Of a DNA stretch of 64,000 bases, positions 9,020-64,000 are shown one piece after another. The translations under genes and the position numbers were made by a program. Each line of letters starts with the position of its first letter. Within the stretch, counting starts at the first letter, position 1. The DNA lies in assembly GCF_002843315.1 (NCBI RefSeq), contig NZ_MVDD01000002.1, positions 496,001 through 560,000 on the forward strand. The letters run 5' to 3'. A model generated the notes under the pieces. It did not search any database and had not been told where the DNA came from. It saw nothing but the letters and a program-made list of their open reading frames with translations. This stretch comes from Labilibaculum filiforme (GTDB taxonomy: Bacteria > Bacteroidota > Bacteroidia > Bacteroidales > Marinifilaceae).

Positions 9020-12000
9020 TTACCCTCTATTCTTCTCGCGTCGCACCAGCTTAATACTTTCGATGTAATTCATTGCTTTTCTTAAAACATCAGACCATAG
9101 CGTTAAGAACAAGAAGCATGTTCCTAACCATATTACAGCAATATTAAACCAAAAAGTATCGATATAAAAAGAAGCAATTCGTTTTACCGGAGCATAAAAA
9201 TGAGCACGCCCAAATTCAGAATCCGGATACATTAAAATAGGATCTTTCTTTTGAATTAACTGGTAATCGACCTCAATCATTTTATTAATTTCGGTTTTAT
9301 TGAGTACCAAATCGGCTAAACCAGCATTGTAATATTTCTGCTGAAATTCATAAACCCCATCTCGTCCCAAAGAATCGACCAAACGAGAATATTCGAAATC
9401 TTTTTTGTAGCCCGATTCACTTCCTAAACCCAAAAAGGAGAGCTTCACCCTATCTAAGAAACTTCTGGTTTGCTCGGCAACGTTCAAATTAAAGTCATGA
9501 ACATTCAATTCCTTTACCTCCGAATAGAGCGTAAAGCCAACCTCATCCGCTAATTGCGAAATCTCTTTTCTAAGCATCTCAAACTGAGCTTCGGTTTCCT
9601 CCGAATCTTTTTCGAATTCGATATTCCGCTCACAATCCAACAATACCGATTCTATTTTAGGAATTAAAAAGGAGCTCTTAAAAGAAGCATCGCTAATTCC
9701 TTTCTCAAATTCGAAAAAGTGTTTCTCGAAAGCATTGTCCTTAAACTGAGTCACCGCTAAAGCTTCGTACGCCCAACGAGTAGTCATCAAATCCCCAACA
9801 ATTGGCACATACACCTTATCGGTAATTCCGGAATGTAGGTCGTCAAATTTAATCATAGCGCCACCTAACAAAAGCTGAGGAACCAGAATTAAAGGAATTA
9901 GGATATAAATGGTTATCACCGAATTTAATCCCGATGAGATATTTAACCCAATCATGTTCGAAAAACAGGAAGTAGAGAACAGCACTAACCAATAAGCAAA
10001 AGTCATTCCTTCCACTTCCAATACATAGTTCCCCACTATTACAAAAGAGATGGATTGAATTGCAGAAAGAACAAATAAGAAAATGATTTTAGAGGCCAAA
10101 TAACTAATTCTGCAGAGGTTCAAAAATTTCTCCCGTTGTAAAATCCTTTTGTCTCGAATAATTTCCTCGGCACTTACGGTTAATCCTAAAAACATCGAAA
10201 CCACTACTGCCATAAACAGGAAAACAGGAAAATTTTTATTGTCGCCGAATACATAACCCGCATCGGTAGTATATTTGGTAAAGTACCCTAATATTACGGC
10301 AAGCAAAGGAGCTTCGAACAAATTAATAATTAGGTACTGCTTATTGGTTAATTTCGAAAGCACATTCCGAATCCAGAAAATAGAAAATTGCTTTAATTTT
10401 CCTGGAATTTTGAAATCACTTTGTGGCAATTTTTTATCGGGTCGCAATAACAAACGATTCGATTCGATATTGTCTTTGTATTTTTGGTACCACTCAATAG
10501 GTAAAATTCGTCGCTCGCGAGTAGGTTTGCCCTGATCATCAATCAATTTAGTTTCAACAATCTGTAATATCTGCTCTGGATTTACATTTCCACAAGTAAC
10601 GCACTCACTTTCGGAAGCATTTACCTGCGAATTTTGAGTCTTAAAGTACACAATAGCATCAATTGGATTGCCATTGTAAATGGGATAACCTCCTCGATCG
10701 AGAATCCAAAGTTTATCCAGCATCTTAAAAATTCCCGAAGAAGGCTGATGAATATTCACTACCACCAATTTCCCCTTTAAAGTTTGACTCTTTAGCAAAT
10801 TCATCACCATTTCCGAATCGGTTGAAGATAAGCCAGATGTAGGTTCATCCACCAACAAAATAGCTGGCTCGCGCATCAGCTCCAAACCAATATTTATTCT
10901 TTTTCGCTGTCCTCCACTAATAAATTTATTTAATGGGTTACCTACTTTAAGATCGCGAACTTCATACAAGTCCAAATCCTGAAGTATTTTCAATACTTTT
11001 TTTAGAATTTGAATTTCGCTGTAATCTTTAAAACACAATTTGGCGTTATAATACAGATTCTGAAATACACTCAACTCTTCAATCAACAAATCATCTTGTG
11101 GCACAAAACCAATTAATCCCCTTACTGCCAATTTATTTCGATGAATATCGTAATCGTTAATACGAATTTCGCCATGATTTAAACTTAAATTTCCATTCAA
11201 AACATTCAACAAAGTGGACTTTCCAACACCACTTCCGCCCATTATTCCTATCAGCTGTCCGCTCTCCTCCGAAATAGTGAATTTATGAATCCCATTGTTC
11301 GAATTCCGAAACTTAAATTCAATCTCTTTGGCCGAAAAAATTATTTTTTGCTGCGATTCCTCCTTTAAAAATTTCCCAGCAATATCCGAGTAGTAAATCG
11401 AACGAATATTAGGACCTTTAATAATGGAGCCATTGCTTAACTGGTAAGTTTTATCGGGCTTTATTTTATTTCCTTCCAGATAAAGGTTTAATTCTCCTTC
11501 GTATTTAAACACCAATAAGTTCACACTCTCGGCAAACATCACCACAATTCGGCCATACAAATTATCGCAAAATAAGTGCTTCTGATCATTCTCTGTCTTT
11601 TTATCTTTCTTCATGAACCAGGACAGATTTTCAGACCACTCGGTTACCTTATTATCGATAATCAAAAACTTACTCTTATCGTATTCATCGAGCGTATCGC
11701 CCCACACAAATGCCAAACAATTAATAAATTCGGAACGTGGAATTTTAAAGTTTTCCGCGACAATACTTATAAACTCGAATTCATTTTCGCTTACCACCTT
11801 ATCCTCGTAAACAAATTCCAATAAACGCAATAGCACAATCAAGCGCTCCTCCTGAACCAACTCTGCCTTAATTTTGGTGCAAACCTTAGATGCCTCTGAT
11901 AAGGATAAAATATTAGCTTGCTGAGAATGCACACTATTCTGGTACTCCATCTCACGCCGATAGAATTCCGAATAGTTTTCGAACAATCGCAGGTATTCCA

Positions 12001-12136
12001 TTTGGAGTTCTAAATTCACATAGCGATTTAAAAAACCTTCCACGATCACTTTCCCTTCCCGCGAAATTCCTTCTTCCTTAGCATTGGCAACAATGGCAAA
12101 AAGATGCATTAGTGCATTTAAAATCGATTCCCCCAT
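9020..12136 (-). CDS. ABCG-like transporter with TerB-like N-terminus (ATPase-permease fusion)
   Basis: A 1038-residue half-transporter with ATPase and membrane domain in one chain. Residues about 1-140 look like a TerB-type helical domain (IVANAKEEGISREGKV, ENEFEFISIVAENF). About 180-250 is a short beta-rich domain resembling FHA-like segments found N-terminal to ABCG ATPases. The ATPase has Walker A GGSGVGKST (Lys306), signature ISGGQRKR and Walker B ILLVDEPTSG. The ABC2-type membrane domain (about 600-790) is followed by a roughly 200-residue soluble insert rich in charged helices, then a last membrane span near 1005-1025. The gene stands alone. Substrate unknown; members of this class occur widely in Bacteroidota without assigned function. 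Confidence 0.85.
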   Translation of the reverse strand: MGESILNALMHLFAIVANAKEEGISREGKVIVEGFLNRYVNLELQMEYLRLFENYSEFYRREMEYQNSVHSQQANILSLSEASKVCTKIKAELVQEERLIVLLRLLEFVYEDKVVSENEFEFISIVAENFKIPRSEFINCLAFVWGDTLDEYDKSKFLIIDNKVTEWSENLSWFMKKDKKTENDQKHLFCDNLYGRIVVMFAESVNLLVFKYEGELNLYLEGNKIKPDKTYQLSNGSIIKGPNIRSIYYSDIAGKFLKEESQQKIIFSAKEIEFKFRNSNNGIHKFTISEESGQLIGIMGGSGVGKSTLLNVLNGNLSLNHGEIRINDYDIHRNKLAVRGLIGFVPQDDLLIEELSVFQNLYYNAKLCFKDYSEIQILKKVLKILQDLDLYEVRDLKVGNPLNKFISGGQRKRINIGLELMREPAILLVDEPTSGLSSTDSEMVMNLLKSQTLKGKLVVVNIHQPSSGIFKMLDKLWILDRGGYPIYNGNPIDAIVYFKTQNSQVNASESECVTCGNVNPEQILQIVETKLIDDQGKPTRERRILPIEWYQKYKDNIESNRLLLRPDKKLPQSDFKIPGKLKQFSIFWIRNVLSKLTNKQYLIINLFEAPLLAVILGYFTKYTTDAGYVFGDNKNFPVFLFMAVVVSMFLGLTVSAEEIIRDKRILQREKFLNLCRISYLASKIIFLFVLSAIQSISFVIVGNYVLEVEGMTFAYWLVLFSTSCFSNMIGLNISSGLNSVITIYILIPLILVPQLLLGGAMIKFDDLHSGITDKVYVPIVGDLMTTRWAYEALAVTQFKDNAFEKHFFEFEKGISDASFKSSFLIPKIESVLLDCERNIEFEKDSEETEAQFEMLRKEISQLADEVGFTLYSEVKELNVHDFNLNVAEQTRSFLDRVKLSFLGLGSESGYKKDFEYSRLVDSLGRDGVYEFQQKYYNAGLADLVLNKTEINKMIEVDYQLIQKKDPILMYPDSEFGRAHFYAPVKRIASFYIDTFWFNIAVIWLGTCFLFLTLWSDVLRKAMNYIESIKLVRREKNRG

Positions 12137-12439
12137 TTATTTTCTCCGAATTTATGGTATGCCTTTATTGGATTAATATCAAAACTCATCTTACAGCACC
12201 TTTCTTTTCCGTTACATTATCATTAAAAAGGCAAATTTGCTCGGCTATCGTTTCTGTTTTAGCCTTTATATAGCAGCAAACAATCTTATTTCATGAAAAA
12301 TGATTTTGAAATTATATTGGTACAATTTTAAAAATACAACTTATTTCGTAAACAAAAGGAGGATTGCAGCTCTGATATCGACATAAAAAAACTGCCTTTC
12401 GTTTCGAAAGGCAGTTACATATCTTGTTATAACTTGTAA
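12137..12439. other. Intergenic gap with one terminator
   Basis: This 303-base gap lies upstream of the ABCG-like gene and downstream of the lipoprotein gene, both on the minus strand. Apart from the terminator at 12385-12416 I see no gene, RNA or convincing promoter in it. Confidence 0.5.
12385..12416 (-). terminator. Terminator after the lipoprotein gene
   Basis: Perfect stem ACTGCCTTTC (12391-12400) with GAAAGGCAGT (12406-12415). Read on the minus strand it is followed by a run of T (complement of 12385-12390). Confidence 0.9.
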
Positions 12440-13273
12440 TTACTGAACTATAGCATCTCTAAGTTTAGCAACACTAGCAGTAATTTCTTTTAATTGTGCT
12501 TCATTCATACTTCCATCAACCACTTTATCGTAGCTAAGTTTTAATCCATTTAGCTCAATTAATAAAGAATCGATATTAGGATCATTAGCTTCAGGCTCTA
12601 AAACCGATACCAATTTCTCCAAAACTTCTTTCTGATCGAAAATTACTTTCACCATTTCAGGATTAGAGTAAGTATTCTCAGAAATATGAGTTGCAATATA
12701 CAATCCCTCAACAAAACTACCCGAAACAACCATTAATGAAAGATTACCTTTGGCATTCTTGTTCAAAAACTCATAGGTATCGTAAAAAGAGTTTGTAATT
12801 ATTTTCACTAGCTGATCTTTATCATCCAAGTTCTTTTCTACCTCTGCTACAAGTGTTTCATTGTAAGCACTAGTAATTTCCAAATTATCGATTAAAGCTT
12901 TTGATGCTTTTAGGAACAACATGGTTTCCTGCTTGCGCTGATAGGTACTTGCATAACTTAAATCGGCACTATATACACCAAGATTTAAAGCTCTGGCTTT
13001 TTCGGTAAAATATTTATCTGCATTCTCTGGAGAATTAGAAAGTCCTAATATATAATCAGCACCAATACGATTCAACATCGAAGTTAACTCAAAAGTTGTT
13101 GGTAGAGGGTAAACTACATCTTTCACCTCTTTTTCAATCGCTTTCTTTAATAAAGGCTTCACAGTTTGTCCTTCATTATTCTTTTTATCAACTGGTTTAC
13201 AACCAACAAAGTTAAAAGCAAAGACAATTACTACAAGAAAAGCAATATAACGGCAATTAGTCAGTTTTTTCAT
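12440..13273 (-). CDS. Helical lipoprotein of unknown function
   Basis: A 277-residue protein that I do not recognise. The signal peptide ends in a lipobox (FNFVGC, Cys at residue 25), so it should be a lipoprotein. The mature part looks almost wholly alpha-helical, with segments such as LTSMLNRIGADYILGLSNSP and LRDAIVQ at the end, and no Cys after the lipobox. It starts at an ATG at 13273, ends just before a strong terminator and sits upstream of no co-directional partner. The LytR/LytS pair lies behind it on the same strand, but a terminator separates them. Confidence 0.75.
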   Translation of the reverse strand: MKKLTNCRYIAFLVVIVFAFNFVGCKPVDKKNNEGQTVKPLLKKAIEKEVKDVVYPLPTTFELTSMLNRIGADYILGLSNSPENADKYFTEKARALNLGVYSADLSYASTYQRKQETMLFLKASKALIDNLEITSAYNETLVAEVEKNLDDKDQLVKIITNSFYDTYEFLNKNAKGNLSLMVVSGSFVEGLYIATHISENTYSNPEMVKVIFDQKEVLEKLVSVLEPEANDPNIDSLLIELNGLKLSYDKVVDGSMNEAQLKEITASVAKLRDAIVQ

Positions 13274-56488: not shown

Positions 56489-57547
56489 TTAGTCTTCGTG
56501 TGAGAATTTCGGACAAGAAATAGCCTTATCTCCTAATTTTTTCACTTTCTGACGACGTTTCAACTTTCTGATTTCTCTAGGGTTAGAGTAATTGTAATTA
56601 TAAGTAAGAGAAATTTCTAAACCTCCTTTATTCGAGGATGCTACCTGCAAATCAGAAACATTAATATCATAGGTAATCATAAATTTCATGCGATTTTTCT
56701 CGTATCCAAATGCAGGAATAATATCCTGAGTAAAACGATACCACAAGCCATAATGAAGAATTGTACCTTTTTCACCATATAACATCATAAAATTGGCCCC
56801 AGCAATCCACTCATTTGCACTTTTCTCTGTTGTAAACATGATTTCGGGCTTCGCATATATTCTTGGTGATATTCTCGACTCTACCCCTCCATGCCAAGCA
56901 AATCGCCTTTTTAGATTATTTGTAATAGCATAAAAAGACTCACTAGGTTGATTAATATGACTAACAGAAACGCCCATAAAATATTTTGATTTCCCTTTAA
57001 AATAGGTAACCATTGAACCAGCTGAAAAATCGGTATAAAATAAGGATTGCGTTCCTAAAGGTTCTCCTGTTTGATAATTAGGATCGAATAGTGTTCCATC
57101 CCACTGGTCATCAAAAACCAATTTATTGTAATCTACTGACTTATTGACTAACTCTAAACCAAGACCTGCGTGAATAAACAATGTATTCCCAGCATTCAAA
57201 CTCTTATTTAAAGATCCTGAAAACATCACTTGAGTTGTCTTTAAACTACCTTCTCCAGCCTTATCGTTGAAAATCATTCCACCCACTCCCAACCAAGACG
57301 AGCTTAGTAATTGAGTAGACAATTTACCATCAACAAAAACAGACTGAGAAACAAAAGGGGTGGTAACACTATTCCACTGATTACGATAGTTTAACCCTCC
57401 TCGAAGGTTATAATCTGAATTTCCAGTCAACGCTGGATTTAACAATAAAGGAATAGAATAGAATTGAGAAGAGTGCACACGTTGAGCAGAGACCTGACAG
57501 ACTCCAAAAAACGATACCAGTATAAAAAAAACTAAACTCTTCCTCAT
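56489..57547 (-). CDS. PorP/SprF-family type IX secretion outer-membrane protein
   Basis: A 352-residue outer-membrane beta-barrel of the PorP/SprF family with a signal peptide (SLVFFILVSFFGVCQVSAQ). Family features: QFYSIPLLLNPALTGNSDYN, RGGLNYRNQWNSV, GVGGMIFNDKAGEGSLKT, and a C-terminal barrel strand followed by a basic tail (REIRKLKRRQKVKK). PorP/SprF proteins pair with T9SS substrates that carry gliding-type C-terminal domains; SprF is needed for export of SprB in F. johnsoniae. It follows exactly such a substrate gene (57762-60290), although a terminator lies between them. Confidence 0.9.
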   Translation of the reverse strand: MRKSLVFFILVSFFGVCQVSAQRVHSSQFYSIPLLLNPALTGNSDYNLRGGLNYRNQWNSVTTPFVSQSVFVDGKLSTQLLSSSWLGVGGMIFNDKAGEGSLKTTQVMFSGSLNKSLNAGNTLFIHAGLGLELVNKSVDYNKLVFDDQWDGTLFDPNYQTGEPLGTQSLFYTDFSAGSMVTYFKGKSKYFMGVSVSHINQPSESFYAITNNLKRRFAWHGGVESRISPRIYAKPEIMFTTEKSANEWIAGANFMMLYGEKGTILHYGLWYRFTQDIIPAFGYEKNRMKFMITYDINVSDLQVASSNKGGLEISLTYNYNYSNPREIRKLKRRQKVKKLGDKAISCPKFSHED

Positions 57548-57761: not shown

Positions 57762-60290
57762 TTAGTACAGTAGTGTAACATTTCCACGTTTTTGTACTGA
57801 ACTACCATCTAGGAAGGTTACTTGTAGGAAGAAAACATAAACATCCATGTCTTGTTTTACTCCACGATAGGTTCCATCCCATCCTACATCTTGCCTGTTC
57901 GATTGAAATATTTTATGACCTAATCGGTTGTAAATAATCAAATTCATTGAACCAATATTGTTTCCACGAACAAAGAGCACATCATTTTTACCATCTCCAT
58001 TAGGAGAGAAACCCGACGCCAGACCTACAAATTGATCGCCTTCTGGGTACAAAACATTAATTGTATCTCTACCCATACAACTTTGCTGATTGGTTACCTC
58101 TACCCAATACTCGCCTGCTTGATCTACATTCAAAGTTTGAGTGATATCATTTGTTGACCACTGATAGAAACTACCACTATTTTCAGCATTAAGGATTACT
58201 GTTTCTCCAGTTTGAGCAATAATGTCTTCACCAAGATCAACTATAGGAGTTGCATTAACCGTTAATTCGATACAATCTCCTTCTGTATTGCCAAATGGAT
58301 CTGTTACTTCCACACAATACTTACCAGATTGATCCACAAAAATACCTTTTTCTGTTGATTCTGAAGGAATCCACTTATAACTTGGATCGGAAGTAAATAC
58401 TCTGTCAATAATTGGTTCTAGATATACTCTATCCCCCATACAAATTTCAATGTCACCACCTAAATCAACAGAGAATTTGTGACCATCTTTTTTAACAACA
58501 CTGATTTCATCGGTATTGTAGCAAGAATATGCCGCAGTAACCTTTACAGAATACACATTTTCATCACTTACTGTAATTGTTTGAGTATTTTCTCCTGTAT
58601 TCCATTCGTATACCAAGCCTGCTTCAGAATTACCTGCATCCAAAGTTGCAGTTTCGCCATCATATAAAGTAAAATCTTCACCTAAATCAACAATAGGTAA
58701 GGCATGAACAATTACTTCAATCTCATCTGTTTTTTCATTACCTGCATCATCTCGCATTGTTACAGAATATGTACCAGACTCACTCACTGTAAGTGTAGAA
58801 TTTCCAGCACCATTAGACCATAAATAAGCATAGTTTTGAGAGATACTTGGATTTGGATTTAGAATCACTTCTTCTCCATCACAAATATTAATATCAGCAC
58901 CTAGACTAATCGCAAACACATCACTTGAACTACTTATAACAATTTCATCGGAACCAACACAACCATTTAAACTAGTAACATTAACACTATAGGTATTACT
59001 AGTATTCACGCTTATGCTTTGACTGGTTTCACCAGTAGACCAAGAATAAGTTAATCCAGGATTTCCTGCATCCAACACCTTAGTTTCGGCTTCGGCCAAT
59101 TCATAATCTGCACCTAAATCAACAATTGGAGCTTTTAATACTTCCACATTAACACTTGCCGATGATGATTTACCTGTGTCCGAATCTTTGGCGGTAACAG
59201 AATAAGTTCCAGACTCTGTAACTGCTAAAGTAGGTTCTTTTGAACCATCGGACCATAAGTAAGTGTAGGTTCCACCAAAATCGATGGTAGGAGTTAAAGT
59301 TGCACTCTCTCCTTCACAAATACTAATATCGCCACCTAAACTAACAGAGAAGGATTCAACAAGGGTGATATCTGCATAAATAGTATCTCCAGCACAATCG
59401 AAAGCTGTTCGCTCTAAAAGTTTTATTTGATAGTCACCCGGAGTATTTCCCCACTGTACATCAAAGCTTAATTCACTATGATACTTATCGCTCAGTTTTG
59501 TTGTAGTTTCATTTAAAACTGTTGCTCCAGCAGGAATAAATAGTTCGTAATTCTCGTTCTTTTCAATAGTAGCTGTGTAGGATTGAATAGTTCCCGACTG
59601 AATAACAGGCTCATAATCTCCCCATACCGTATTTGGCAAGGCCATTACATCTACCTCTAAAGTCTGATTCACCAGATCTTCAGTTACCGGAATTCCTGAT
59701 ACTGTCTTCGCATCGACTAATAAAATTTCAGCACGATGAGTTTTCCCACTTGTATTCGGTATTTCGAGTTCGAACTCAAAAGAATTTACATACAATTCTT
59801 TTGCTCCATCAGGCATTACTGCAGGCGCACGATCTACCGAAATTTTAAATGTCCAAGGTTTCGGACCCGAATAATTAACGGTAACATTTATTTTCCCATT
59901 TGCATCTCCACCATTATTTGCAGAACAAACATATGGCACTTCTAAATCATCAAACTCTGCTGTTGGAGCAGCTCCATCAACCACAACCATCATAATTAAA
60001 GGCTCACCAAAACAACGCGTTCCTAAATCCTCTGGATATACCTTTACTACATATTCGCCTTCATTATCGAATACATAATCGCCAGACTCAAATGTTTCTG
60101 ATGTAAGATATGCAACAGCTCGAGTAGCTGTATGAGTTACCGACCAATGGTATGCATAACCGGTAACTTCATCCACCTTAAAATTAAGTGTTGTTCCCTT
60201 AACCACATACTGCTGTGCCACAACAGCCCATCCTCCCAAGAGGATGGCTATTGCGGTAAGCAGTGTTTTATGTAGTAAGGTTCTCAACAT
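57762..60290 (-). CDS. Modular surface protein with T9SS gliding-type C-terminal domain
   Basis: An 842-residue secreted protein with signal peptide (AIAILLGGWAVVAQ). Order: residues 27-228 are the same two-domain module as the small proteins encoded upstream (domain A with GEYVVKVYPEDLGTRC, Cys93; domain B with Cys122, KPWTFKI and LEIPNTSG, ending MALPNTVWGD). About 230-312 is a second domain A (GDYQIKLLERTAFDC). About 315-745 are three pairs of Ig/PKD-like repeats: one type has LGGDISICEGESATL, the other PIVDLGADYELAEAETKVLD. About 750-842 is the gliding motility-associated C-terminal domain (SGFSPNGDGKNDVLFVRGNN, WDGTYRG), which directs T9SS export and surface attachment. Probably the anchored or tip subunit of the array. 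Confidence 0.88.
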   Translation of the reverse strand: MLRTLLHKTLLTAIAILLGGWAVVAQQYVVKGTTLNFKVDEVTGYAYHWSVTHTATRAVAYLTSETFESGDYVFDNEGEYVVKVYPEDLGTRCFGEPLIMMVVVDGAAPTAEFDDLEVPYVCSANNGGDANGKINVTVNYSGPKPWTFKISVDRAPAVMPDGAKELYVNSFEFELEIPNTSGKTHRAEILLVDAKTVSGIPVTEDLVNQTLEVDVMALPNTVWGDYEPVIQSGTIQSYTATIEKNENYELFIPAGATVLNETTTKLSDKYHSELSFDVQWGNTPGDYQIKLLERTAFDCAGDTIYADITLVESFSVSLGGDISICEGESATLTPTIDFGGTYTYLWSDGSKEPTLAVTESGTYSVTAKDSDTGKSSSASVNVEVLKAPIVDLGADYELAEAETKVLDAGNPGLTYSWSTGETSQSISVNTSNTYSVNVTSLNGCVGSDEIVISSSSDVFAISLGADINICDGEEVILNPNPSISQNYAYLWSNGAGNSTLTVSESGTYSVTMRDDAGNEKTDEIEVIVHALPIVDLGEDFTLYDGETATLDAGNSEAGLVYEWNTGENTQTITVSDENVYSVKVTAAYSCYNTDEISVVKKDGHKFSVDLGGDIEICMGDRVYLEPIIDRVFTSDPSYKWIPSESTEKGIFVDQSGKYCVEVTDPFGNTEGDCIELTVNATPIVDLGEDIIAQTGETVILNAENSGSFYQWSTNDITQTLNVDQAGEYWVEVTNQQSCMGRDTINVLYPEGDQFVGLASGFSPNGDGKNDVLFVRGNNIGSMNLIIYNRLGHKIFQSNRQDVGWDGTYRGVKQDMDVYVFFLQVTFLDGSSVQKRGNVTLLY

Positions 60291-60337
60291 GTTATTTTTT
60301 TATTTTTTTCAAATCTAATAATTTAATATATTAAATA

Positions 60338-61042
60338 CTAGTTAAGAGTAATAGCACCTGAAATTGTAGGTTTTCCGTGAACAGTTACACTTCTTGTGTT
60401 ATTCGCAACATCTGCATCAACAGCTACGATACCTAAATCGGCAGTTGTTGCACTAATCAATTGAATGCTTACAGTTTGATCACCTGCAGTTAAATTTTCA
60501 AAATCTGAAATACTTAATTGGCCAGTTAATGGAGTTGCATCACCTGCAGCACCCATTGTTACAACTAGAGTCGATTTTGTTCCATCAATTGCAGTTTTCT
60601 CATATGTTAATTCGAATGGAGCTACACCACCAGTAAATACAACATCAAAGTCACTAACAGTTAAGGCTCCTCCTATCAATGGAGAACAACTAATAACGGC
60701 ATCATTTGCAGGCAAGTTAGCAAACATAACCGAAGAAGCACCTACAACTAAAATTTCAGATGTTCTTGTTTCTGTCAAACAGCCATTTGCATCAGTTCCA
60801 AATACAGTAACATCAAATGTTCCTGGAGCATCCCAAATAAGTGTCATCGAATTTCCTGTTTGTGCAACTAAATCAGTACTCGTTCCACCTGTGGTAGCCC
60901 AAGTATAAGTTACTCCCGCAACAGGATCTACATTATACGTATGAGAAGTATTAATCGTCACGGTTTGGTCCTGTGCATTAACAGTTCCTACGAATGCGAT
61001 TAAGCTAATAAATAGCAAGCCAAATATTTTAGTCAGTTTCAT
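60338..61042 (-). CDS. Small exported A-B module protein 1
   Basis: A 234-residue exported protein (signal peptide FGLLFISLIAFVGTVNAQ). Domain A (about 25-100) is PKD-like: HTYNVDPVAGVTYTWATTGG, then LIWDAPGTFDVTVFGTDANG and a Cys in GCLTETR. Domain B (about 102-234) has Cys in VISCSPL, FELTYEKTA in place of the WTFDY motif of its paralogues, and ends GKPTISGAITLN at the stop. It has no T9SS C-terminal domain. It starts six bases after its upstream paralogue and 47 bases before the large surface-protein gene. Function unknown; structural subunit inferred. Confidence 0.8.
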   Translation of the reverse strand: MKLTKIFGLLFISLIAFVGTVNAQDQTVTINTSHTYNVDPVAGVTYTWATTGGTSTDLVAQTGNSMTLIWDAPGTFDVTVFGTDANGCLTETRTSEILVVGASSVMFANLPANDAVISCSPLIGGALTVSDFDVVFTGGVAPFELTYEKTAIDGTKSTLVVTMGAAGDATPLTGQLSISDFENLTAGDQTVSIQLISATTADLGIVAVDADVANNTRSVTVHGKPTISGAITLN

Positions 61043-61048
61043 AGTAGT

Positions 61049-61795
61049 TTAATTTAAGTTTATGATTGATATTATTGGTTTCTTATTAATTGTTCGTGTA
61101 TGTATTTCCTGACCTGAAACTATCTTTAAAGTTCCCCCATAACTATTGGTCGCACTTGTTATGGTTATATGATTTATTTTATCTGAATTTACATCTTCAA
61201 TAACGCCCACTACTTGGAGCATTTTATCTGCAAAATTTACAATTGCAGTTCGATCAACAGCATCATCTAAATGGTAATTTACTGTAATCGGGTATTGTGA
61301 TTCTGGCAACTCGGTACCTGAATTAAACATGGCTACTAATTCTGTAGCAAATTGTGGATCTAAATCAGCACAATCTTCTGATGTAAGATCTTTAAATACA
61401 ATCGTGGCTTCAGTACCAAATACCTCCACTGGTATAGCTCTTCGAGAAGAACAAAAATTCGTTCCTGAATTAAACTCTTCCACAATTGCGTAATATTTGC
61501 CTTCATTTAAAAAGGTAATGTCAACTTCCGCTTTTTCAAATTCTCCCCCAACAAATAAAAAGTCATCATCTCCTCCTAATCCATCATTATCTGCTAATAA
61601 AGCATCCTTTTGATCTGCCCAATCGTTCACCTTATAAACTTTCCATTCATAAGTATTCCCAACATGATCAGTAATAGTAAGTTTATGCGTACTTCCAGGC
61701 AATATCACATACGGACTCTGTGCCTTAGCTGAAGCCAAAGCCACCATCGTAACAATTACGAGGATCAGAATTCTATGTAGTGTACCTTTAAACAA
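61049..61795 (-). CDS. Small exported A-B module protein 2
   Basis: A 248-residue exported protein (signal peptide ILILVIVTMVALASAKAQ) and paralogue of its neighbours. Domain A: GSTHKLTITDHVGNTYEWKV, FLNEGKYYAIVEEFNSG, and FCSSRRAIPVEVFG with the conserved Cys. Domain B: VFKDLTSEDCADL with its conserved Cys, YPITVNYHLDDAVD, and the end KKPIISIINLN. It is the most divergent of the set in domain B. The 86-base gap before it holds a perfect hairpin (61823-61848). Confidence 0.8.
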   Translation of the reverse strand: MFKGTLHRILILVIVTMVALASAKAQSPYVILPGSTHKLTITDHVGNTYEWKVYKVNDWADQKDALLADNDGLGGDDDFLFVGGEFEKAEVDITFLNEGKYYAIVEEFNSGTNFCSSRRAIPVEVFGTEATIVFKDLTSEDCADLDPQFATELVAMFNSGTELPESQYPITVNYHLDDAVDRTAIVNFADKMLQVVGVIEDVNSDKINHITITSATNSYGGTLKIVSGQEIHTRTINKKPIISIINLN

Positions 61796-61822
61796 ATCTT
61801 TCTATTTTTTATGTTTGAATTA

Positions 61823-61848
61823 CCTTCCCAGATCGTAATCCGGGAAGG
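61823..61848 (-). other. Intercistronic hairpin in the small-subunit array
   Basis: Perfect seven-base stem CCTTCCC (61823-61829) with GGGAAGG (61842-61848), 12-base loop, no T-run on the minus strand. It is therefore more likely an RNA stability or processing element than a terminator, and could set different levels for the genes on each side. Confidence 0.5.
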
Positions 61849-61881
61849 ATTCTATATGTAAGTCAACAAACTTTACATTAA

Positions 61882-62742
61882 TTAGTCAATCGAGATATCT
61901 GATGTTTTAGGAGAAGGTAAGATAACAATCGCATCTTTTGCTTTATTATTATCCACTGTTCCATTTTCATTAACATCTCCAGTATGAGTATTGATAGATA
62001 CTGCTGAAGCTGTCAAATTCAAATTAATTGACTCACTTGCAACAGGACCAGGAGTATTAGGCACATCAACCTTCAATATGATAGATGATGTACCAAGAGC
62101 TACGGCAACGTTAGTACCTGCAACTGTAGCATCTGTTGAAGTTACAGTTCCTGCTGTAGCAACATAGTCGAATTTCCATGTCCCTTCAGTCCATGCAACA
62201 CCACCTGCCGTCATCGAAACTTTAAAATAACGAACAGAACCTCCAAAATCGTCAGATCCACGTGTTATAATTTCTCCACTCTTATCATTACAAGTTGAAA
62301 GAACTGTCAAGTCTGGTGTTGTAGCTGTATAGTCAACCAAAGGTGTACCTGCGACATCACAAGCCTCAACTAAAAGATCAATATCTCCACCATCTACTCG
62401 AATACTAATCTGACGAAGAGTAGTACAAGCACCACCAGTATTCTGTTCAGTCACCTGAACCAAGTAATCACCTGAAGCCAACCATTGAATCTCAACTTCA
62501 TTTAAATCTACAGCCGATGGACCAGTAATAAATGAGTATGTTCCTGCAGGAGCTTCTGCTGTTCCCGCCGAATTTAAAACAGCCCAAGTATATGTATTAC
62601 CTGCATGATCCCCACTAGGATCTGTTAAATTCACTTTAAAAGTATGCTTCGAAAACACATTATGTGTAGCATCCTGTGCGTAAGTTCCAAATGCAATTAA
62701 AGAAATTGCAAGAACCATTGTTATTTTTAATAATCTTTTCAT
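61882..62742 (-). CDS. Small exported A-B module protein 3
   Basis: A 286-residue exported protein (signal peptide ITMVLAISLIAFGTYAQ). The ATG at 62742 is used; a TTG two codons upstream is less likely. Domain A: HTFKVNLTDPSGDHAGNTYT, EIQWLASGDYLVQVTEQNTG, and CTTLRQISIRV with the conserved Cys. Domain B: a Cys in LLVEACDV and another in LSTCNDKSG, then WKFDYVATAG, KVDVPNTPGP, and the end SPKTSDISID. It is closest to proteins 4 and 5. A Gly/Thr/Asp-rich composition with few Lys fits an extracellular beta-sandwich protein. Confidence 0.82.
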   Translation of the reverse strand: MKRLLKITMVLAISLIAFGTYAQDATHNVFSKHTFKVNLTDPSGDHAGNTYTWAVLNSAGTAEAPAGTYSFITGPSAVDLNEVEIQWLASGDYLVQVTEQNTGGACTTLRQISIRVDGGDIDLLVEACDVAGTPLVDYTATTPDLTVLSTCNDKSGEIITRGSDDFGGSVRYFKVSMTAGGVAWTEGTWKFDYVATAGTVTSTDATVAGTNVAVALGTSSIILKVDVPNTPGPVASESINLNLTASAVSINTHTGDVNENGTVDNNKAKDAIVILPSPKTSDISID

Positions 62743-62767
62743 GATCAATAAATTTAAGAGTTTTTAA

Positions 62768-63592
62768 TTAGTCCGTAGTTATACCTGTAGTTGCAGGTAC
62801 TGCTTTTACAATGTAAGATACTTTATTACTTGCATCACCTGTTTCACTATCTGGAGTACCTAACTCATCTTTAGCATTTGAAACAGCTAATTCCATAGTA
62901 AAATCAGTATCCTGTCCATTCACTCCAGCAGTATTTTTATTTGTACTATAACTTATAGAGAAAGTCACCTCTGAAACTCCTGCAGCAACAACTACATTAT
63001 TGCCAGTAGCAGTTCCATCAGTTATAGAAACAGCAGTAACATCACCTAAGTTAAAACTTCCAGCAATATCAGTTAAAGCATAATCAAACGACCATTTTTT
63101 CGTGTTATCTCCGCCTGTCATTTTAACTTTAAAATCACGTGATGTAGTTCCAAAAATATCCGTTGAATTATCACCAAGAACATCGGCATCATCAACAGGA
63201 GAAAGAACTGTTGCACATTCTTCAGTGGCACTAACAAGTTCCGCAAAAACATCAAAGGTATTTGTACCAACTTTCACAGCAATTTGACGCACTGTTGGAC
63301 AGGCAAAACCTACATCTGTTCTTGATTCTACAACCTGTACAATATAATCACCATCAACTAACCATTCGATATCTACATAAGTACCATCAAGAGCTGTTTT
63401 ATAATTAAATTGTGTTCCGTTACTACCAGTCGTAACACTCCAAGCTAATGTCGTCGTAGCAATACTACCTTTAGTAATTGTATATCTATGAGTTGAACCC
63501 GCAAAAGGAGTAGTACCCGTATTTTGTGCTTGAGTATTTGTAAACATCAATACCCCAACAAAAACCATTAAAAGTTTATATAAAGATTTCAT
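62768..63592 (-). CDS. Small exported A-B module protein 4
   Basis: A 274-residue exported protein (signal peptide LLMVFVGVLMFTNTQAQ). Domain A: GSTHRYTITKGSIATTTLAW, DIEWLVDGDYIVQVVESRTD, and CPTVRQIAVKVG. Domain B: conserved Cys in SATEECATV, FKVKMTGG, KWSFDYALTD, then a calcium-site-like acidic stretch (NGQDTDF, DELGTPDSETGD), ending AVPATTGITTD. It starts 30 bases after protein 5 and is followed 25 bases later by protein 3. Confidence 0.82.
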   Translation of the reverse strand: MKSLYKLLMVFVGVLMFTNTQAQNTGTTPFAGSTHRYTITKGSIATTTLAWSVTTGSNGTQFNYKTALDGTYVDIEWLVDGDYIVQVVESRTDVGFACPTVRQIAVKVGTNTFDVFAELVSATEECATVLSPVDDADVLGDNSTDIFGTTSRDFKVKMTGGDNTKKWSFDYALTDIAGSFNLGDVTAVSITDGTATGNNVVVAAGVSEVTFSISYSTNKNTAGVNGQDTDFTMELAVSNAKDELGTPDSETGDASNKVSYIVKAVPATTGITTD

Positions 63593-63622
63593 ATCGTATA
63601 TAATTTTCTTGTTAACTCTATA

Positions 63623-64000
63623 TTAATTAAAGGTAATATCTCCAGTATCTGGAAGACCGTAAATTGTAACATTTGCAGTTTCATCATCTCCTGTTACAGT
63701 ATCATTTCCAAAGCTATCTTTTACATTTGTAATTTGAACTTTGAAAGTTTTGTCTCCTCCATCAGTAGTATTAGGTACTGAAATTACCAAACTATGAGTA
63801 TCACCAGAAGCGTTAACACCTGTAGCTGCTATTTCATTACCTGCACCGAAACCAACAGTTTGGTAATCAAAAGTCCAATCAGTTGCTCCATTGGTTTTGC
63901 TCAAAACAAAAGTTATATCTGTATTTGCTGCAGTAGTCGCACAATCCACTGCAATAGTAGCATCTGCAATCACCACATCGAAGTCATCACCAACATTTAC
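63623..64000 (-). CDS. Small exported A-B module protein 5 (N-terminus beyond window)
   Basis: The C-terminal 125 residues of a fifth paralogue; the frame is open to the right edge of the window (first visible residues VNVGDDFDVVIADATIAVDC). The visible part is domain B: the conserved Cys, ITFVLSKTNGATDWTFDYQT, ISVPNTTDGGDKTFKVQI, an acidic DSFGNDTVTGDDE stretch, and the end YGLPDTGDITFN. The signal peptide and domain A must lie outside. A GTG at 63976 is only an internal Val codon, not a start. Confidence 0.8.
   Translation of the reverse strand, partial: VNVGDDFDVVIADATIAVDCATTAANTDITFVLSKTNGATDWTFDYQTVGFGAGNEIAATGVNASGDTHSLVISVPNTTDGGDKTFKVQITNVKDSFGNDTVTGDDETANVTIYGLPDTGDITFN

Follow-up and report, generated by a model that had tools for sequence, protein, structure and literature searches.

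An array of exported subunits beside a single type IX secretion substrate in Labilibaculum filiforme may encode an ordered surface fibre

Here, we have analysed 64,000 nucleotides of DNA from the marine sediment bacterium Labilibaculum filiforme (Bacteroidota; Bacteroidia; Bacteroidales; Marinifilaceae; assembly GCF_002843315.1, contig NZ_MVDD01000002.1, positions 496,001 to 560,000), a stretch that we call the window and whose positions are used below. Its minus strand carries, in order of transcription, the genes of five small exported proteins, S5 (cut by the window edge), S4, S3, S2 and S1, followed by those of an 842-residue protein that we call the base and of a PorP/SprF-family protein. 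It is practically certain that this is a homologous, conserved array with a single base that bears a C-terminal domain (CTD) of the type IX secretion system (T9SS). We find it rather likely that the locus encodes an ordered, non-covalent surface hetero-fibre, which would be exported and anchored through the CTD of the base. The key feature of the system is a short C-terminal tail on the CTD-less proteins, which, as judged by sequence comparison, appears to follow the next protein on the base side more than the body that carries it. Homology, synteny, the number of CTDs per chain, the presence or absence of the N-terminal domain that we call the socket, and the tracking of the neighbour by the tail were computed.

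S1 to S5 are 234, 248, 286, 274 and 230 residues long and share one plan: behind a Sec-type signal peptide, assigned by eye, come a domain A, in which a Trp and a Cys are conserved, and a domain B, which contributes a second Cys. Open reading frames and BLASTP place the stalk subunits, all on the minus strand, at 60338..61042 (S1, adjoining the base), 61049..61795 (S2, with a TTG start), 61882..62742 (S3, counted from an ATG) and 62768..63592 (S4). S5 occupies 63623..64000, and its length refers to the protein completed from the adjoining contig, where it starts outside the window at contig position 560315. The preliminary description of this DNA had listed five consecutive genes for small exported proteins of 234 to 286 residues; the five genes stand, and with S5 completed the range becomes 230 to 286. 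In line with the homology claimed earlier, a BLASTP comparison confined to the six A-B modules links the small proteins in 7 of 10 pairings (E 1e-23 to 4e-5); the pairs S1-S2, S1-S4 and S2-S5 were not significant. The N-terminus of the base matches two of the five small proteins weakly in pairwise comparison (E 0.001-0.003). A profile of the five proteins finds it in the source genome with an E of 1.1e-5, and it is also matched by a head profile built without the source locus, so that the claim that the base begins with the same A-B module is borne out. Domain A had been called PKD-like. This holds for S1, where Pfam PKD scores above its cut-off (26.5 vs 23.5 bits), and not for S2-S5, in which Pfam gives no match above cut-off. 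A known family other than PKD was considered for domains A and B and rejected, as searches of Pfam, NCBIfam and PDB sequences gave nothing beyond generic PKD. Neither Pfam nor NCBIfam detects a CTD in S1-S5 (S5 by its C-terminal 125 residues).

The base (57762..60290, minus strand, as are its parts) consists of a signal peptide, domain A, domain B, a tail-like joint, a second domain A (A'), PKD/Ig repeats and a type B CTD. Its domain A, the socket proposed to receive the tail of S1, covers approximately residues 27-106 (59973..60212) as defined by the head profile without the locus. Alignments of orthologues show that the tail-like stretch after domain B (residues 217-228, ALPNTVWGDYEP; 59607..59642) continues covalently into A', and this joint would be a covalent version of the tail junction proposed between subunits. 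The second domain A, also claimed previously, is backed by the head profile in most base orthologues (E 5e-7 to 3e-3) and is not supported by it in the bases of L073-L076. Library scans identify the middle region as PKD-type repeats, and the CTD (57774..58019) scores 43.9 bits with TIGR04131 (cut-off 35; residues 759-839) and 50.8 bits with CHU_C (cut-off 27; residues 758-838), in agreement with the repeats and the gliding-type CTD seen earlier. With this CTD, an adjoining PorP/SprF gene and translocon genes in the genome, the base is a type B T9SS substrate. In one relative, Marinifilum fragile JCM 15579 (L071, ~10001-12569), the base frame seems broken, with a 789-residue frame of odd ends that is either real or an assembly error.

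The CTD-less proteins of these loci, which range from ~220 to 2347 residues, end in a short tail that starts from a Pro after the last strand of the body. These tails do not figure in the preliminary description. A Pro is found among residues 14 to 5 from the end in 155 of 156 CTD-less chain proteins, and the sole Pro-less case is a 93-residue fragment outside the system. In the window, the tails are KPTISGAITLN in S1 (60341..60373), KKPIISIINLN in S2 (61052..61084), SPKTSDISID in S3 (61885..61914), VPATTGITTD in S4 (62771..62800) and LPDTGDITFN in S5 (63626..63655), all on the minus strand. The large proteins that we call linkers and tips have the forms HKPxPSGINY and PxPxGI[FY]xE, respectively.

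We compared tails with neighbours in 24 loci (L059-L078, G000, G003, G014 and G034), which give 132 donor/neighbour pairs, or 126 for windows along the neighbour. G007 and G009 were left out, and G006, G012, G016, G017, G019 and G024 repeat loci already named. We excluded donors longer than 375 residues, one L071 pair affected by the broken base frame and pairs without a neighbour; the set still holds some 5'-cut fragments, a few short tips and a non-secreted 93-residue fragment (L066). For orthologous donors, defined as body similarity >0.45 between different loci, tail similarity was 0.795 when the base-side neighbours were alike (n=133) and 0.073 when they were unlike (n=41), and in 39 of the 41 unlike-neighbour comparisons it was not above 0.5; such comparisons share phylogeny and are not independent events. 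After three near-identical loci were thinned, the values were 0.744 (n=59) and 0.121 (n=29). The effect depends on the side of the neighbour. When the upstream neighbour is kept and the downstream one replaced (n=18), similarity is 0.75 in the core, 0.80 in the first 14 mature residues and -0.02 in the tail. With the downstream neighbour kept and the upstream one replaced (n=13), tail similarity is 0.81. A partial Mantel test of tail against neighbour head, given the donor body, gave an r of 0.22, and none of 1000 within-locus shuffles, whose mean was 0.02, attained this value.

The same behaviour can be followed in single subunits. We picked 19 S2 loci by a sequence motif, which did not pick L062, L073, L076, L077 and G014. 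By eye, the tail class of S2 agrees with the class of the next gene in these 19 loci: the 10 tails of K[KQ]P type all stand before S1-type neighbours, the 5 of ALPxKP type all before X-type neighbours, and the other 4 before neither kind. On a tree of the 19 S2 cores, L068 falls within a Labilibaculum clade of S1-followed proteins, yet has another tail and another neighbour, and further joint changes of tail and neighbour are seen for L067/L072 and for L065/G003/L075/G034. In L073 and L077, S1 is missing and S2 abuts the base, and here the S2 tail has the S1 form. In one case (L076:8663-9991, the same as G019_65867), S2 and S1 are naturally fused into a single frame, which has kept the tail-like joint and lost the signal peptide of S1. 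We consider it highly likely that the tail is specific for the next subunit.

Sockets and CTDs are distributed along the chains in a regular way. We used a head profile that omitted the tested locus, though the underlying alignment was made with it. At a threshold of >=10 bits, it detects an N-terminal domain A in all 24 bases and in 121 of 122 small subunits, the one miss being a 5'-cut linker fragment. Tips and linkers were separated by their tail motif, and 5'-cut frames were left out. A profile of all heads detects domain A in 13 of 16 linkers (15.8-34.5 bits). A linker profile adds L066 (77 bits) and G003 (73 bits), which brings the count to 15 of 16; this profile was trained on 11 of the linkers that it matched, with L066 and G003 independent of it. 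The exception is the linker of L063, which starts with a CUB domain in the manner of a tip, and no separate tip is visible in its locus. Domain A was found in none of the 16 tips, the best scores being 3.2 bits with the all-heads profile and 4.0 bits with the linker profile. A base-derived profile matches a type B CTD in 24 of the 180 proteins of 24 chains, one per chain and always in the base. Pfam detects no CTD in four tips or in four further proteins that are linkers or resemble them, two of these linkers being without their C-terminus; among the CTD-less chain proteins, the search for type A CTDs covered S1-S5 and these eight.

The preliminary description held that the array runs past the window edge. 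It does so by the rest of S5. The next gene encodes a linker, a large protein with HYR repeats, inside which the contig stops at 561502, 1.5 kb beyond the right edge of the window. The N-terminal part of the linker very probably sits at the end of contig C27, where it is preceded by a 633-residue and a 1390-residue protein, both with GIYHE at the C-terminus. In the relatives G007 and G003, where the cluster is in one place on a single contig, the order is tips, linker, stalk genes, base and PorP, with one small unrelated gene among the large genes of G003. Pfam scans, which covered 4 of the 16 tips, identify PA14, C-type lectin, GLEYA, GEVED, CUB, F5/8, laminin-G-like, ice-binding and HYR domains, and the tips are quite probably adhesive. 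Upstream of the linkers in G007, G003, G034 and G024, several tips per locus share the tail type GI[FY]xE, as if they were interchangeable on one linker socket; four of these tips, scanned with Pfam, differ in their ligand domains. The loci read are mostly arrays beside a CTD gene, with a PorP gene in most of the family, so that the co-occurrence expected earlier is conserved and the relatives are not scattered singly.

A base with a socket is present in 23 of the 56 family genomes searched. All 24 of the family genomes that match the base profile also carry a second base-like CTD protein, which is matched solely from position >=63 of the A-B-A' profile; the count is 23 rather than 24 because G005 shows this second protein alone. 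In the source genome (G000), it is P0009, a protein of 762 residues (contig C6:11603-13891) that begins at domain B by eye, has no head match before residue 186 and is adjoined by neither an array nor a PorP gene.

Beyond the family, a broader stalk profile matches 38 of 198 genomes of the order, the source genome included, many of them by the PKD-like part only. We read 14 order-level stretches chosen for a short matching frame. In nine of them, a type B CTD match occurs in the same protein as domain A, and in 8 of these 9 this protein is preceded on the same strand by CTD-less proteins, the nearest of which ends in a Pro-containing tail. A tenth (L123:10119-10697) combines domain A with a type A CTD (TIGR04183, 28.8 bits; cut-off 23), suggesting that sockets can pair with either T9SS signal. 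The smallest bases elsewhere in the order are 192-207 residues long and hold little beyond a signal peptide, domain A and the CTD. Such a minimal protein has, we infer, no evident job except to lend its CTD to whatever binds domain A, and to us it is the strongest single hint of hitchhiked export.

We propose the following model. A stalk subunit would begin with an Ig/PKD-like socket (domain A), continue with domain B as its body and end in a plug of 10-14 residues, and each plug would dock, probably by beta-strand addition, in the socket of the neighbour on the base side, giving the order tip, linker, S5, S4, S3, S2, S1 and base. This order and its head-to-tail logic are suggested by the arrangement of genes and tails. 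Tips would contribute a plug and ligand-binding domains and have no socket, and several tips with the same plug type would be interchangeable; the base would have a socket and, alone, the type B CTD. With socketless tips and a CTD on the base alone, the chain would therefore be, topologically, one long T9SS substrate cut into pieces, and an adhesive tip at the N-terminal end with a CTD at the C-terminal end would be the polarity of that virtual substrate. All links would be exported by Sec, and the plugs would dock in the periplasm to form a chain from tip to base. The adjacent PorP/SprF carrier would then take the CTD of the base, and the chain would leave CTD-first through SprA with the CTD-less links following, to stay anchored by PorP/SprF. 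The source genome encodes SprA (2788 bits) and GldK (612 bits). In the published model, as outlined in an excerpt of PMC10994853, substrates leave the SprA pore CTD-first, and excerpts of PMC9143113 and PMC12618676 state that type B proteins stay bound to their carriers. An ordered physical fibre is probable; as to hitchhiked export of the CTD-less links on the base, we lean towards it on balance. An assembled surface structure with an anchored end, which had been proposed as a polymer or coat with an anchored base or tip, is retained as the best reading. The CTD protein would be the base and not the tip; the tips are separate CTD-less proteins encoded beyond the window edge. Because the tail of a subunit tracks the identity of its next neighbour, we favour an ordered chain of different links over the polymer or coat of many equal subunits suggested at first.

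AlphaFold2 modelled the A-B-joint-A' part of the base with a mean predicted local distance difference test score (pLDDT) of 87.9, and S2 and S1 as one chain with 83.3. In the latter model, residues 211-220 of the S2 tail have a mean pLDDT of 90, and the S1 tail, which has no partner there, is unpaired with a pLDDT of 74 for residues 451-460. For the S2-S1 model, Foldseek ranked three fragments of the Aureispira grappling-hook protein GhpA first; the TM-scores by target were low, 0.19-0.45 among the GhpA matches listed. A known fold identity was not obtained by Foldseek for either model, the matches being generic Ig-like, cadherin-like and GhpA beta-sandwiches at low TM-score.

Several of our observations weigh against the ordered fibre. 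The predicted template-modelling scores of the two models are modest, 0.64 for the base part and 0.59 for S2-S1. The joint of the base forms only a short strand or bridge in its model and not a full donor strand, and in S2-S1 residues 221-223 are beta-paired with a partner strand that is not assigned, in a block with a mean pLDDT of 51 that is shared with the disordered linker. Among the neighbour comparisons, the tail stayed the same despite a different neighbour in 2 of the 41, and was below 0.4 in similarity despite a like neighbour in 5 of the 133. The body of the donor also predicts its tail (partial r 0.35). When the downstream neighbour differs, similarity is also lower in the 14 residues before the tail (0.34) and in the signal peptide (0.28), the latter comparison being blurred by the choice of start site. 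The codons of the tail lie next to the neighbour gene, and recombination could move both. Four of the 14 order-level stretches have no base, and in L127 a protein with socket and CTD has no plug partner upstream on its short contig. The reduced 2.6-Mb relative G009 (L054/L055) differs in gene order and has divergent tails, among them a subunit tail that lacks Pro; there, a 376-residue CTD base and a PorP-like gene come first, followed by subunits of 270-336 residues.

Since the tail codons adjoin the neighbour gene, joint transfer is the main rival explanation. According to it, the proteins are exported independently of each other, and a recombination event that brings in a different next gene also exchanges the final codons of the gene before it. 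In many loci the tail codons are a few to ~30 bp from the neighbour gene, cassettes have clearly been exchanged between loci, and a change of the upstream neighbour goes along with variation in the first 14 mature residues, which linkage predicts too. Against this, the donor gene loses its similarity at the tail or shortly upstream of it rather than at random sites, and unrelated donors are still somewhat similar in the tail when their neighbours are alike (0.26, n=107, vs 0.04, n=7146). The position of the signal within the neighbour can also be compared. The partial correlation of the tail along the neighbour peaks at 0.25 in the first half of domain A, with 0.13-0.22 in other windows of domain A, is 0.165 in the signal peptide, and is lowest in domain B (0.06-0.13). 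The signal peptide is nearer in the DNA and yet a poorer predictor of the tail than part of domain A, which favours function over linkage, although the signal peptide is no clean control because it is less alike when either the upstream or the downstream neighbour differs. Linkage would also leave the socketless tips and the single CTD per chain unexplained, and we regard it as unlikely.

A surface coat or homopolymer of many copies of the small subunits, with the CTD protein as nucleator or cap, would account for several A-B paralogues beside one anchored protein with the same head. Paralogues of the same locus differ, however, in tail class and match different neighbours, position-specific orthologues are kept across species, and a homopolymer would need a tail that fits its own head. 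We consider this reading decidedly unlikely.

It is very improbable that the tail is a new short sorting signal for an export or anchoring factor and each protein is secreted alone: a Pro-initiated tail is common to the CTD-less proteins of a locus and the tip tail GI[FY]xE is near-constant, but all proteins of a locus would be expected to share one sorting signal, while stalk tails vary by position and follow the neighbour, and bases with socket and CTD would be left unexplained. A slighter chance still is given to the CTD-less proteins as periplasmic or gliding accessory complexes that help the CTD protein, like SprC/SprD of F. johnsoniae, for which the sprCDBF operon, in the excerpted accounts a set of accessory genes, CTD adhesin and SprF, and the presence of GldK in the genome would speak, whereas lectin, CUB, PA14 and ice-binding domains on tips would be odd in that role and the PorP C-tail has a single Cys, not the gliding-type Cys-x-Cys.

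We next compare the ordered fibre with known systems. Chaperone-usher pili are ordered heteropolymers of Ig-like subunits from tip to base. In the proposed fibre, the plug is C-terminal and the anchor is a T9SS CTD protein, and a scan confined to proteins of the cluster found no chaperone or usher domain. SprB and Aureispira GhpA are long strings of Ig/PKD/HYR-like domains; these are one polypeptide, whereas here the string is split over ~8-10 genes with joints that appear exchangeable. The type V (FimA/Mfa1) pili of Bacteroidales are, according to excerpts of PMC4789730 and PMC5789003, multi-protein fibres with anchor, shaft and tip and strand-based assembly, which is a likeness. Unlike in type V pili, the signal peptides of the small proteins end in A-Q and have no lipobox Cys by eye, the plug is C-terminal and every shaft subunit is different; no FimA/Mfa family match was found in the proteins scanned, and no PDB relative by profile. 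The SprB-SprF and PG1035-PorP pairs share with our locus a type B CTD protein, an adjoining PorP/SprF gene and carrier anchorage (excerpts of PMC9143113 and PMC12618676). In what these excerpts describe, the substrates carry their own CTD, whereas here the stalk and tip proteins lack one and would ride on the base. In Tat hitchhiker export, as excerpted from PMC4273604, a signal-less partner crosses the membrane with a signal-bearing one; this occurs at the inner membrane, whereas by analogy the export proposed here would occur through T9SS at the outer membrane. Among the matches listed in the open-licence literature of PubMed Central, the parts available describe no arrays of this kind, no bases of socket and CTD and no CTD-less T9SS hitchhikers.

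If confirmed, the system would add a new one to the ways in which this group of bacteria assembles and presents adhesive fibres. The fibre would belong to none of the pilus classes compared above and would have a readable assembly code in which the tail names the next subunit. A CTD alone would no longer suffice to list T9SS substrates, and since CTD-less tips and stalks would reach the surface through the CTD base, the surface proteomes of these bacteria would be undercounted. The tails could also provide short peptide tags to recruit a chosen protein to a chosen cell-surface socket. The locus gives a concrete test of how T9SS handles non-covalent cargo.

The gene that follows the base, as previously noted, encodes a PorP/SprF-family protein of 352 residues (56489..57547, minus strand; TIGR03519 185 bits with a cut-off of 90.55, PF11751 144 bits), the candidate outer-membrane carrier and anchor. 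Its C-tail (KAISCPKFSHED) holds one conserved Cys, which is invariant in 8 aligned sequences, its own included. According to excerpts of PMC12635249, gliding driven by SprF needs a Cys-x-Cys in the periplasmic C-tail that forms a disulfide to GldK, and the twin-Cys motif of PorG is not rigidly conserved. As the carrier has one C-tail Cys and not the Cys-x-Cys of the SprB-SprF gliding complex, a static fibre is more likely than a moving one; a disulfide contact of this Cys with GldK/PorK is possible. We also note the strong conservation of the C-tail stretch KKLGDKAISCPKFSHED with its single Cys (window 56489-57547).

In a phylum sample of 395 genomes, the base head has two weak matches besides the source genome. 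Profile A10 matched 65 of 295 genomes of the class (source genome included); counting all of these as the system was rejected because most of the matches listed lie in large PKD-repeat proteins and align with only a part of the profile. Profile A11, in at least 129 of the 395 phylum genomes (source genome included), found among the matches listed mainly long CTD proteins, matched from the middle of the profile.

Two further large proteins of the source genome are worth recording. On contig C12 (L086:6821-18238), a single-chain protein of 3805 residues with a CTD match is followed by a PorP-like gene, assigned by eye and by place, whose product also has a CPKF-like C-tail; within this genome, we take the adhesin to be the covalent equivalent of the split fibre. 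On contig C9 (~152000-176000; L093/L094), a very large HYR-repeat protein has an open frame of 9072 residues, 7989 of them in the stretch read.

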